Positions 4,523 to 10,407 of a DNA stretch of 11,358 bases are shown here, one piece after another. Both the position numbers and the translations under genes were made by a program. This stretch comes from Candidatus Fermentibacterales bacterium (GTDB taxonomy: Bacteria > Fermentibacterota > Fermentibacteria > Fermentibacterales > JAFGKQ01), in contig JAFGKQ010000303.1 of NCBI GenBank assembly GCA_016928495.1, positions 1 through 11,358 on the forward strand, read 5' to 3'. The notes under the pieces are model-generated. The model saw nothing but the letters and a program-made list of their open reading frames with translations, had not been told where the DNA came from and ran no database searches. Positions within the stretch are counted from its first letter, which is position 1, and each line of letters starts with the position of its first letter.

Positions 4523-5269
4523 GTGAGCCGGATGCGGCTTGCTGAGATGACTACCGACCAGGTAGTTCAGTACCTGGTGAAGAGGTCCATCGTGGCGATA
4601 CCGTTGGGAAGTACCGAGCAACACGGCTCGCTGGGTCCGCTGGGCTGCGATTCGATCGTTGCCACCGAAGTAGTGGAGAGGGCCTGCAACCGGACGGGCA
4701 TAGTGATGACCCCGGCCATGCCGTTCGGCCTCTCACAGAACCACACTTCCTTCGGCGGGACGGTGAGCCTGAGGGCTTCCACCCTGGCTTCGGTGGTGTT
4801 CGACATCGTCGGCTCGCTGTCCGGGCAGGGCTTCAGGAAGTTCCTGTTCGTAAGCGGTCACGGGGGAAACAGGGGGCCCGTCCTCTGCGGCCTGGCGGAC
4901 GCGGTTGCCTGCAACCCCGACCTCCGCTGCCGCTACGTGCCCTACTGGGAGCTGCCGGGGGTCCCGGAAGCTCAGAAGGAGCTGTTCGGAGAAGGCAATG
5001 GGGCGCACGGTACCGCCACGGAGCTGTCGATCGTATACCATCTCTACCCCGACCTGGCCGGCGAGAGCAAGCGCAAGATCAAGAAACACCCTCCGGAAGC
5101 TCCCGCGGGATGTGTTCTGGGACCGGAGGAGTGGGCCAGGAGATACCCCGAGGGCCTCGTGGGAGTCGACCCCTCGGTCATCTCCGACAGGGCAGGCCGT
5201 GACATCCTGAAGGCGATAGTCGACTCCCTCTGCAAGCTCATCAGCGAGTGGGAGAAGGATGCCTCCTGA
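4523..5269 (+). CDS. Creatininase-family metal-dependent amidohydrolase
   Basis: A 248-residue cytoplasmic protein of the creatininase family (PF02633; creatinine amidohydrolase, the archaeal formamide hydrolase ArfB, mycofactocin peptidase MftE). Signature segments are IPLGSTEQHG (26-35), GPLGCDS (38-44), SGHGGNRG (111-118) and GAHGTATELS (160-169). Glu32, His34, Asp43, His113 and Glu167 are the likely divalent-metal ligands. Members cut cyclic or linear amides, so a small amide or short peptide is the expected substrate; specificity cannot be read from the sequence. The start shown is GTG after GAGAAGGTGG; an in-frame ATG three codons on (4532) is a good alternative. Its last 11 bases overlap the ABC ATPase gene, which points to coupled translation with the transporter. 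Confidence 0.85.
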   Translation: MSRMRLAEMTTDQVVQYLVKRSIVAIPLGSTEQHGSLGPLGCDSIVATEVVERACNRTGIVMTPAMPFGLSQNHTSFGGTVSLRASTLASVVFDIVGSLSGQGFRKFLFVSGHGGNRGPVLCGLADAVACNPDLRCRYVPYWELPGVPEAQKELFGEGNGAHGTATELSIVYHLYPDLAGESKRKIKKHPPEAPAGCVLGPEEWARRYPEGLVGVDPSVISDRAGRDILKAIVDSLCKLISEWEKDAS

Positions 5270-7197: not shown

Positions 7198-7244
7198 TTG
7201 ACTGCGAGCACACTATTTGCATATTTGGCCTGTTATACAAATAG
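7198..7244 (+). promoter_or_regulatory. Promoter and putative ArsR operator
   Basis: TTGACT (7198-7203) and CATATT (7220-7225), 16 bases apart, form a plausible promoter for the ArsR operon. Over the -10 box lies an AT-rich repeat set in otherwise GC-rich DNA: CTATTTG (7213-7219) and CAAATAG (7238-7244) are perfect inverted repeats, and a second TATTTG (7222-7227) also mirrors CAAATA (7238-7243) with a 10-base spacer. ArsR/SmtB repressors bind such sites at their own promoters and release when metal binds. The site lies between divergent genes and could govern both. Confidence 0.5.
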
Positions 7245-7261
7245 GAAGGCTCGGGACGGAC

Positions 7262-7576
7262 ATGCAGGGCACGACCCGGATGCCTGACCTCCGGAAGCAG
7301 GCTGAGATCATCAGGGCGATGGGAAGCCCATCGAGGCTTCTGATCGTTCAGGAGCTAGCCCGACGCGAGATGAGCGTAGGCGAGGTAACAGCACTGGTAG
7401 GCTCCGACATGTCCACCGTCTCCAGGCACCTGGGCGTACTCAGGCAGGTCGGCATTGTCTCCTGCCGGCGAGAGGGCACGACCATCCTGTACCGCCTGGA
7501 TACGCCCTGCGTCCTGGGGTTCCTGTCCTGCGTGAAAGAAGTGCTCGAGGGGTCTTGCGAGGCTGGCTCTCCATGA
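7262..7576 (+). CDS. ArsR/SmtB-family metalloregulatory repressor
   Basis: A 104-residue winged-helix protein: MGSPSRLLIVQELARREMSV (20-39), recognition-helix region DMSTVSRHLGVLRQVGIV (49-66) and the wing CRREGTTILYRLD (68-80). The classical ArsR metal site (CVC in helix 3) is absent; that stretch reads MSVGEV. Instead Cys83, Cys90 and Cys99 lie in the C-terminal helix (TPCVLGFLSC, then GSC), plus Cys68 in the wing, so a thiol sensor site formed by C-terminal cysteines is likely. The start at 7262 is chosen because it leaves the operator upstream; AGGAAGG lies 12 bases before it, rather far. The TGA stop overlaps the permease ATG. Expected role: repress this cassette until a thiophilic metal or metalloid is present. 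Confidence 0.85.
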   Translation: MQGTTRMPDLRKQAEIIRAMGSPSRLLIVQELARREMSVGEVTALVGSDMSTVSRHLGVLRQVGIVSCRREGTTILYRLDTPCVLGFLSCVKEVLEGSCEAGSP

Positions 7577-8892
7577 GGATCTCCGGCAGGTGGAAGACGG
7601 CGTTGCTGCTGGCGGCGGGGTTCCTCGCGGCCTACCACCTTCCGCTCCAGGACCCGCGCTTCAGAGGCGCGGTACTCGAGGGCCTGTTTCTGCTCAAGGA
7701 CTACGCCAGGCAGCACGTGGTGCTGTGCCTGGTGCCCGCCTTCTTCATAGCCGGCGCGATATCGGTGCTGCTCTCGAAGGGTGCGGTGCTGAGGTTCCTC
7801 GGGGCAAGCGCCCGGAGGCTCGTCGCCTACTCGGTCGCATCGGTCTCCGGAAGCGTTCTCTCCGTCTGCTCCTGTACGGTTCTGCCCATCTTCGCGGGCA
7901 TATACGGCATGGGGGCCGGGCTGGGACCCGCGACGACCTTCCTCTACTCGGGACCCGCCATCAACGTCCTGGCGATCATCCTCACGGGACGTGTGCTGGG
8001 AATGGAGCTCGGAGTGGCCAGGACTCTCGGCGCGGTCCTCTTCGGGATCGTGCTCGGCCTGCTGATGAGCTTCTTCTTCCGCGGCGAGGAGAGAAAGCGG
8101 TGCGCGGCCAGGCCGTCGAGCGAGCCTCTCGGCAATACACCGGAGGCCCCCGTCTGGCACAGCGTACTGCTCCTCCTGGTTCTGGTGCTGATCCTTGTGA
8201 CCGCAACCTGGGGTGGCTGTGAATGCAGCGGGGGTCTGACCGGGAGCTTCTATCGGGCAAAGGGACTGGTGCTGTCTGGACTGGGCCTGATCCTCGCGGC
8301 CATGCTGCACCGCTGGCTGGGCGCAAGGCTCTGGAAGCTCGCCCTCGGTGCCGCGATGGTGGCGGCCACGGCTCTTCTGCTTCCGGGGAGGACGGTCCTC
8401 TCCTTCGGCACGGGGGCGCTGGTGTTGTCGTGGATTCTGGCCAGCACTCGCGGTGAAGGATACGAATGGTTCGATTCGACCTTCGGCTTCACCAGGCAGG
8501 TGCTCCCGCTGCTCTTCCTGGGCGTGCTGGCGGCCGGGGTCCTGCTCGGCCGGCCGGGGCAGCAGGGAGTCATCCCTTCTTCCTGGATCGAGAGCGCCGT
8601 GGGCGGGAACTCCGTCACGGCGAACCTGGCCGCTTCCCTGGCCGGTGCGCTGATGTACTTCGCCACGCTCACGGAGGTTCCCATTGTGCAGGGCCTCATG
8701 GGTGCGGGCATGGGCAAGGGCCCCGCCCTGGCGCTTCTTCTGGCCGGCCCGGCGGTCTCGCTTCCGAACCTCCTGGTGATCCGAAGCGTCCTGGGTACAA
8801 GGAAGACGGTGGTCTTCGCCGGGCTGGTAGTGACGATGGCAACACTCTGTGGATCGCTCTACGGTTGGCTCTTGGCCGGATCGGGGGGGTGA
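7573..8892 (+). CDS. ArsP/DUF318-family permease (putative metal or metalloid efflux)
   Basis: A 439-residue membrane protein of the PF03773 permease family, with eight or more hydrophobic segments in two halves. The first half has the hallmark SVCSCTVLPIFAGIYGMGAG (97-116) followed by LGPATTFLYSGPAINVLAI; the second has a matching ATLTEVPIVQGLMGAGMGKG (364-383) followed by PALALLLAGPAVSLPNLLVI. Cys99 and Cys101 form a CxC pair in the membrane. A second pair, Cys216-Glu-Cys218 in WGGCECSGG, follows a hydrophobic stretch. Relatives include ArsP (organoarsenical efflux) and SO_0444-type Cu/Zn exporters; the substrate here is undecided. The ATG overlaps the ArsR stop, and the TGA overlaps the GTG of the CxxC protein gene, so all three are coupled. 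Confidence 0.87.
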   Translation: MRISGRWKTALLLAAGFLAAYHLPLQDPRFRGAVLEGLFLLKDYARQHVVLCLVPAFFIAGAISVLLSKGAVLRFLGASARRLVAYSVASVSGSVLSVCSCTVLPIFAGIYGMGAGLGPATTFLYSGPAINVLAIILTGRVLGMELGVARTLGAVLFGIVLGLLMSFFFRGEERKRCAARPSSEPLGNTPEAPVWHSVLLLLVLVLILVTATWGGCECSGGLTGSFYRAKGLVLSGLGLILAAMLHRWLGARLWKLALGAAMVAATALLLPGRTVLSFGTGALVLSWILASTRGEGYEWFDSTFGFTRQVLPLLFLGVLAAGVLLGRPGQQGVIPSSWIESAVGGNSVTANLAASLAGALMYFATLTEVPIVQGLMGAGMGKGPALALLLAGPAVSLPNLLVIRSVLGTRKTVVFAGLVVTMATLCGSLYGWLLAGSGG

Positions 8893-9128
8893 TACAACTG
8901 AAGATCCAGATCCTCGGAATGGGATGCCCGAAGTGCCGGCAGCTTGCCGAGCGCGCCGCGGAGGCTGCTGCTCGCCTGGGCCTCGACTTCGAGATCGAGA
9001 AGGTCACGGAGCTTGCCGCCATCACCGCGATGGGGGCGATGATCACGCCGGCCCTGGCGGTAGACGGCGTCCTGAAGCTGCAGGGCTCCGTACCCACGGT
9101 GGAGCAGCTCGAAGAGATGCTGAATTAA
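8889..9128 (+). CDS. CxxC mini-thioredoxin (redox-active disulfide protein 2 type)
   Basis: A 79-residue thioredoxin-fold protein of the TIGR00412 type: KIQILGMGCPKCRQLAERA with Cys13-Pro-Lys-Cys16, EIEKVTEL (35-42), the cis-proline region MITPALAVDG (51-60), VLKLQGSVPT and a final helix. There is no signal peptide, so it is cytoplasmic. It probably reduces or passes thiol-bound substrate to the co-encoded permease; that is inference from gene order. The GTG start lies in a 4-base overlap with the permease stop after a G-run; relatives usually begin at the Lys of KIQIL, so a CTG at 8898 is a possible alternative. The last codons and TAA lie within the left arm of the inverted-repeat element. 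Confidence 0.85.
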   Translation: MIQLKIQILGMGCPKCRQLAERAAEAAARLGLDFEIEKVTELAAITAMGAMITPALAVDGVLKLQGSVPTVEQLEEMLN

Positions 9129-9247
9129 GGGGACACATCACTTATCTCGGTGAAACGGCTCTGAGTGCTGCCCTGCAGTCGGCGGCGCAGAGCCGGGTGC
9201 CGGAGCAGCAATCGGCCGAGATAGGTGATGTGTCCCCTTAATTCAGC
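9119..9247. mobile_element. MITE-like palindromic element with 32-base inverted arms
   Basis: The left arm (9119-9150), starting GCTGAATTAAGGGGACAC, and the right arm (9216-9247, reverse complement) are identical over 32 bases except at 9142/9224 (T opposite G). The 65-base centre holds a nested pair, CGGCTCTG (9156-9163) and CAGAGCCG (9188-9195). No reading frame is inside. Such elements are typically non-autonomous and moved by a transposase elsewhere; the GGGGACAC end resembles, from memory, repeats found near REP-associated Y1 transposase genes. No target duplication was identified. Both flanking genes end inside the arms with the same CTGAATTAA. As RNA, either strand would fold into a long hairpin, so it likely ends both convergent transcripts. 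Confidence 0.7.
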
Positions 9248-10407
9248 CAGGACTCGAAGGCCCTGAGCCCCTCGGCAGGCACCCAGTGCGCACCGTCGTG
9301 CTCGTAGAAGGTCACGTCATAGCCGCGGGACTGGAAGTAGTCCCTGGCCACAAGGCCTCTATCGTCCTCGCTGGCTCCGCGTGCGATGAACACCCGGAAC
9401 CCGGGGGCCGATTCCTGTGGGGCCCACTCCTCTCCGATCATCGGGGCACCGAAAGCAGCGACGCCGTCGTAGATGTCCGGATGCAGCAGGGCCGTCATGT
9501 AGCAGAGCTGCCCGCCCTGGCTGAAGCCCAGCAGATAGGTTCCGCACACCGGGTAATGCTCGCGCAGCTCCATCGTGGCGAAGACCACGTAGTCGATGGA
9601 CGTGATCACCGATCTCTCCCACAGCTCGGCCCTTCTGTCCTCCGGCAGGATCTCCAGCCAGTCCTGGCTCCCGTGGGCGCACCAGCTATAGCCGCCGCCG
9701 GTCTCGGGCGGAAGCGCGTAGGGTGCCTGGAGGGAGAGATAGATGAAGTCCCCGTTCTCGAAGTCCGAGAATCGCCGCGAGAACTCCTCGGCACTTCCGG
9801 TGTAGCCATGAAGGGCAACCACGGCGGGATACTCTCTTCCCGGATCGTAGCCCTCCGGCAGGTGGAGCCTGGCAGTCTGAAGCGACGGGAACATGAGATA
9901 GAGCATCTCGTCGCTTCGCAGAGCGGCCATCTCCTCCATCATGGAGTCGATCTCTGCCACAGCCCCCTGGAACTGCTGCGTCTGCCGTATGCTGTCGAAG
10001 TCCGGGTCGGCATCCACGAAGCCCCGGTCGTCCAGCCCGGCCCTGAAGGAAGCCACCAGGAAGCGCGATGCCAGCGCTTCCTCGCCCATGAGCGCATAGC
10101 AGCAAGCCAGGTTGTAGATCACTATGGGATTGCGGTTCAGGTCGGCCTGGAGGAACAGCAGGTAGTACCTTGCCGCAAGGTCGAAGTCACCGATGGTGTA
10201 GGCCTGTTGTGCGTTCTCGATCAGGTAGCCCAGATCCGCCTCGAAGAGCCTCTCGAAGTCGGGCTCCGCGGGCTCGACGCGGGCGGGGTTGGCCCACCCG
10301 GGAAGAGCCTCCGGTATCTCGACCCCCCCGATGCTGGCCCGGGACGGGGCCGGGAGCCCCACGACGAGCGGTACTGCGAGCAATAGAAGCGACCTCCGGA
10401 GGAACAA
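9238..10407 (-). CDS. Exported TPR-alpha/beta-hydrolase fusion (esterase-like)
   Basis: A 389-residue protein with a signal peptide (MFLRRSLLLLAVPLVVGLPA, probable cut after SRA at 22-24). Residues about 55-130 contain TPR-like helices (AQQAYTIGDFDLAARYYLLF, then IYNLACCYALMGEEALASRF). The hydrolase domain (about 175-389) has the oxyanion-loop HGYTGS (200-205), nucleophile elbow GFSQGG with Ser296, acid Asp348 or Asp349 in ASEDD, and His374 in DGAHWVP. It resembles the carboxylesterase/phospholipase or esterase D group; the substrate is unknown. The start is TTG, supported by GGGAGG six bases before it and by the correctly placed leader. It lies 31 bases after the beta-propeller gene, probably one operon. 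The final codons, CTG AAT TAA, come from the inverted-repeat element's arm. Confidence 0.85.
   Translation of the reverse strand: MFLRRSLLLLAVPLVVGLPAPSRASIGGVEIPEALPGWANPARVEPAEPDFERLFEADLGYLIENAQQAYTIGDFDLAARYYLLFLQADLNRNPIVIYNLACCYALMGEEALASRFLVASFRAGLDDRGFVDADPDFDSIRQTQQFQGAVAEIDSMMEEMAALRSDEMLYLMFPSLQTARLHLPEGYDPGREYPAVVALHGYTGSAEEFSRRFSDFENGDFIYLSLQAPYALPPETGGGYSWCAHGSQDWLEILPEDRRAELWERSVITSIDYVVFATMELREHYPVCGTYLLGFSQGGQLCYMTALLHPDIYDGVAAFGAPMIGEEWAPQESAPGFRVFIARGASEDDRGLVARDYFQSRGYDVTFYEHDGAHWVPAEGLRAFESWLN

Follow-up and report, generated by a model that had tools for sequence, protein, structure and literature searches.

Two convergent genes in the window (the whole 11,358-nt stretch of DNA analysed, from a Candidatus Fermentibacterales bacterium) face each other across a long palindrome, and the last codons of both lie within it. 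This arrangement raises the question of whether the palindrome is a plain terminator of the host or a mobile element and, if it is mobile, whether the element brought the two stop codons along or landed beside them.

The palindrome and the genes that end in it

A sequence-only reading of the locus had described a near-perfect palindrome with 32-nt arms, and this description holds. The left arm (9119-9150, plus strand) and the right arm (9216-9247, minus strand) are identical at 31 of 32 positions in inverted orientation and enclose a 65-nt interior (9151-9215), which is partly self-complementary and has no similarity to interiors elsewhere. The left arm consists of an outer prefix, GCTGAATTAA, followed by the core GGGGACACATCACTTATCTCGG. 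In this copy the match between the arms runs 10 nt outward from GGGG and reaches the CTG of both convergent genes, and GAATTAA, which adjoins GGGG on the outer side of each arm, is in frame with the corresponding gene. The gene on the left (8889-9128, plus strand, GTG start at 8889) encodes an ArsE/MTH895-type thioredoxin-like protein (TIGR00412, 88.9 bits; PF13192); its final codons, CTG AAT TAA, occupy 9120-9128 within the left arm, with the TAA stop (9126-9128) on the outer edge. The esterase-like gene on the right (9238-10407, minus strand; PF00756) ends with the same codons within the right arm, its TAA (9238-9240) again lying on the outer edge. Both proteins thus finish with Leu-Asn supplied by the arms, as had been claimed. 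The thioredoxin gene is the last of a row that also includes genes for an ArsR-family regulator and an ArsP-type permease (7217-9128), forming an arsenic-type operon.

Folded as RNA, the 129-nt element reaches -91.7 kcal/mol (z = -11.7), and none of 200 dinucleotide shuffles was equally stable. The earlier suggestion that it folds into a terminator is not supported, since a T-run (U-tract) is lacking: by the criterion of a hairpin plus T-run, no terminator-like site occurs between 8900 and 9500, and an intrinsic terminator was rejected. The strong hairpin may still affect transcripts. No Rfam family matched in the window.

The arm sequence of the window was found 3' of the stop in none of 29 thioredoxin homologues and none of 14 esterase homologues from relatives, which are not strict empty sites because synteny was not established for them. 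The thioredoxin homologues stop at about the same residue as the window gene, several of them with LS-stop and a TGA codon. All 14 esterase homologues extend 2 to 7 residues beyond the aligned end (for example WI-REIQ-stop as against WL-N-stop in the window), which makes the window esterase slightly shorter.

Copies of the arm and a candidate transposase

The search for further copies that the sequence-only reading had proposed was made with the 17-nt core GGGGACACATCACTTAT, allowing up to 3 mismatches. It returned 36 matches in the genome, as against none for the reversed control, and these arm cores fall into 17 places on 15 contigs. They are laid out as inverted pairs, as single arms (contigs C265, C271 and C321) and as clusters with nested or tandem arms. 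The commonest arm is AGTTATGGGGACACATCACTTATCTC, and some arms contain GAGATAAG...CTTATCTC, which forms a weak inner stem. On all arms the outer prefix is AT-rich, being mostly AGTTAT or AATTAT and otherwise GAGATAA, AATTAA or AATAAT. In pairs that enclose no gene, the interiors measure 25 to 119 nt and are mutually dissimilar; a single MITE with a conserved interior is therefore unsupported in this genome (the best of 72 pairwise comparisons gave z = 2.8). When the interiors were compared with shuffles for an additional hairpin constraint, most lay within or near the shuffle range; that of C301 (z = -7.3) contains a nested degenerate palindrome.

Two elements (L057 near 5497 and L054 near 2581) stop a short distance from tRNA genes, for tRNA-Ser and tRNA-Asp, on the 3' side, and around 7030-7080 of contig C158 (L056) there are tandem truncated arms, TTATGGGGATAGTTATGGGTAGTTATGGGG, the first of which supplies the TAG stop of one gene.

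One inverted pair of arms with the same layout, on contig C90, encloses a 238-aa Y1/HUH frame, so that the Y1-type transposase with similar flanks that the earlier reading had told us to look for is present. The frame carries an HUH motif (HVH) and the tyrosine motif RYxxxNPVRAG, and its sole Pfam domain, Y1_Tnp (PF01797), matches at the cut-off. Its own stop is a TAA on the arm edge (...GEISDVSP*). No PDB chain matched this protein, and a search of the genome_contigs set with this transposase yielded one distant locus, which lacks the window arm. Homologues within the order, roughly 40-53% identical, are often flanked by terminal inverted repeats (TIRs) of other sequence, such as TTTAAGGGGACACCATCA, AATTAGGGACGGAGGTAATTA, TTAAATAGTGACAGGCACTATTTAA and AAAGGGGACAGACTCCTATATTT. 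Given its matching flanks, the C90 transposase is probably the recogniser of arms with the core GGGGACACATCACTTATCTC. At 4976-4998 of the same contig (L042), the right arm seems to contribute a start codon to the gene that follows, which we take to be a YgiQ-like radical SAM frame.

This organisation recalls the TIRtrons, or TIRYTs, in which a Y1/HUH transposase gene lies between long inverted repeats (Di Nocera et al. 2013, PMC3733652). Some TIRYT TIRs have GGGGWSAS in common and are dispersed as dimers (PMC3733652; PMC6006769). The likeness extends to the C90 gene between its long terminal inverted repeats, to GGGGACAC in the arms, which fits that motif, and to the dispersal as singles, dimers and clusters, all three of which occur here. 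Most TIRYTs belong to subclass 2.1, and 6 of 26 fall outside it (PMC6006769). Unlike the long TIRYT protein with a C-terminal HTH domain, the C90 frame has 238 aa and Y1_Tnp alone. Some points count against the assignment: the C90 frame scores 62.6 of 80 bits with the REP-associated tyrosine transposase model, under its curated cut-off, the interiors are unrelated between copies, which is a difference from TIRtrons and odd if whole units move, and no strict empty site turned up. On the strength of arms, layout and transposase, the window palindrome is best read as a non-autonomous, MITE-like TIR dimer of the TIRtron kind. A second TIRtron occurs on contig C225 (L043), where a Y1 frame lies within a 45-nt TIR starting GGGGACGTAG (1050-1094 and 2266-2310); its left TIR encodes the last residues of the upstream gene together with a TAA.

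The unrelated interiors, like the single arms on C265, C271 and C321, would also be expected if two arms had inserted independently, one at each gene end, with the old intergenic spacer left between them. We consider this unlikely. The similarity between the two arms is somewhat higher within elements than in shuffled pairings (P = 0.004), the match in the window extends outward from GGGG as described above, and pairs in sister genomes are of constant length, either 47 or about 108 bp. The likeness within elements fits either movement of whole units or the known process by which quasipalindromes are corrected through template switching (cf. PMC7202029), and such correction could also explain the outward match into the CTG of both genes. 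That likeness, which is slight, leaves room for the arm homogenisation that had been suggested from the single mismatch.

Stop codons at the arm edges

The genome is dense, with about 9% of intergenic DNA and a median convergent gap of 5 nt on the background contigs. Stop usage was counted on 40 background contigs (267 kb) and the element contigs with a simple codon-usage gene caller. Away from arms, 276 genes end with TGA (164), TAG (103) or TAA (9); near arms, 14 genes end with TAA (7), TAG (6) or TGA (1). The excess of TAA (7/14 as against 9/276) is significant (Fisher P = 1e-6). Of the nine TAA stops away from arms, three either fall inside an arm that is read outward or immediately precede a degenerate one, and without them the enrichment has P = 2e-7. 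The context differs as well: every one of the five TAA stops on background contigs is GTAA or CTAA, whereas six of the seven near arms read ATAA or TTAA, the seventh (C321) being CTAA followed by TTAT.

The position of the arms points the same way. For ten arms, a stop in the same sense lies no more than 8 nt away, where about 0.8-0.9 would be expected, since a random non-coding position has a 2.5% chance of being that close to such a stop on its 3' side. The binomial P is 4e-9 with 32 outer boundaries counted and 7e-6 with all 36 arms and a doubled rate. The copies therefore cluster at gene ends, which the sequence-only reading had asked to be checked. Arms that face no gene end bear the same prefixes, which suggests that the TAA belongs to the element. 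At several TAG stops, the host would give the T and the arm the AG(TTAT).

Stop supply by the arms is a statistical tendency, and most arms bear no stop by themselves. In the window copy, two of the three inward frames reach a stop inside the arm; in the commonest arm none does, and a host T is needed to complete T+AG. The claim that such an insertion carries an in-frame stop in either orientation thus suits the window copy in part and is overstated for the family.

Conversely, the transposase might target AT-rich stop codons, so that the TAA pre-existed and the element landed beside it. Enzymes of the IS200/IS605 type use short targets that are often AT-rich, and such a preference would agree with the TTAT, ATAA, TTAA or similar sequence that precedes every arm. 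This order of events is nevertheless improbable: the same prefixes stand on arms that face no gene end, the esterase falls short of its homologues in length, and no stop in the 267-kb background lies on or beside a same-strand TTAT, ATAA or TTAA. A bidirectional terminator or mRNA 3'-end hairpin that belongs to the host, sits between convergent genes and has nothing to do with transposition would account for the very stable fold and for the position between gene 3' ends and beside tRNA 3' ends, but it has very little left to recommend it, as the site is not terminator-like and has no T-run, the arm is common to 17 places and encloses a transposase gene, and homologues in relatives lack it downstream of their stops. 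With other copies in the genome and homologues of both flanking genes lacking the arm, the choice between mobile element and plain terminator that had been posed at the outset falls to the mobile element.

We are thus fairly confident that the palindrome is a non-autonomous TIRtron copy situated where two convergent genes meet, with its edges supplying both stops. The C90 transposase would mobilise the arms as single-stranded DNA, in the manner of HUH enzymes. An element would have arrived between the facing ends of the thioredoxin-like and esterase-like genes, where the in-frame TAA of each arm edge would have come to serve as the stop; the resulting esterase is a few residues short of its homologues, and the thioredoxin keeps about its normal length. 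Copies probably survive best where their edge gives a working in-frame stop, because a dense genome offers few other places in which an insertion does no harm. Were the palindrome transcribed, it would form a very stable hairpin, which may protect or separate the converging mRNAs. In this genome, where TAA is rare, a TAA stop points to a gene that probably received its stop from an element, and instances in which mobile DNA has rewritten the end of a gene can thus be counted. The measured habit opens the question of whether elements of this sort at the 3' ends of genes are tolerated there, targeted to them or useful.

Related genomes and known systems

The habit recurs in relatives: within 8 nt of a stop lie 14 of 49 distinct arms of the TAGGGACGGAGG family in four related genomes and 6 of 29 distinct arms of the TAGTGACAGGCACTA family in three others, with P values that are rough owing to a background from few bases and the simple gene caller. 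At three loci (L192, L201 and L207), the element ends both convergent genes, as in the window. It is conceivable, though somewhat doubtful, that TIRtron-type elements in general have been selected to carry a portable stop on their outer edge. In that case, each of the TIR families, which differ in core while their transposases are homologous, would possess an AT-rich edge (GAATTAA, GATAA, AATTAAATAG, TTAAATAGTGA) able to close a gene cleanly when correctly phased, the elements would fill the 3' ends of genes, and stop codons and C-termini would be rewritten by elements in dense genomes.

The closest precedent is found in the GTAG REPs, whose termini often give a TAG stop and which, when convergent, are mostly no further than 20 bp from either 3' end (PMC3733652). 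The elements described here resemble REP/REPIN sequences and their RAYT (TnpAREP) in the inverted pairs that form a hairpin, in their location at gene 3' ends and in stop donation, there by TAG. They differ in that the main stem is formed by both arms together; no GTAG or GTGG foot occurs in the arm consensus, and membership was rejected. The C90 transposase, as read from an alignment, has F (LFQ) where TnpAREP reportedly keeps a conserved W. With IS200/IS605 elements the system shares the HUH and catalytic Tyr motifs and the AT-rich sequence outside the ends, whereas the longer transposase frame and long TIRs set it apart from that group, with its short tnpA and subterminal hairpins, in which it was not placed; nor was a multicopy autonomous element found. 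MITEs of DDE transposons are likewise short, non-autonomous inverted-repeat elements near genes; those described here differ by their relation to a Y1/HUH transposase and, in this genome, by the lack of a conserved interior.

In open-licence papers, neither a relevant paper on the arm motif and its transposase nor this TIR family was found. Palindromes of such a kind are already known, and the quantified stop-codon habit is the mildly new part. The arms are a new TIR family of the known TIRtron kind, and stop donation, a property reported for GTAG REPs, is extended here to the TIRs of the little-studied TIRtrons and measured.

In sister genomes, the elements of about 108 bp (L192-L216) are constant in length and retain spaced AATAA / ATTATT / GAATAAA motifs, their interiors diverging otherwise. 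Three TIR cores that differ in sequence and lie in different genomes (L239, L192 and 9120-9128 of the window) have a similar prefix, TGAATTAA(A), in front of them, and this prefix may be a target or cleavage site.
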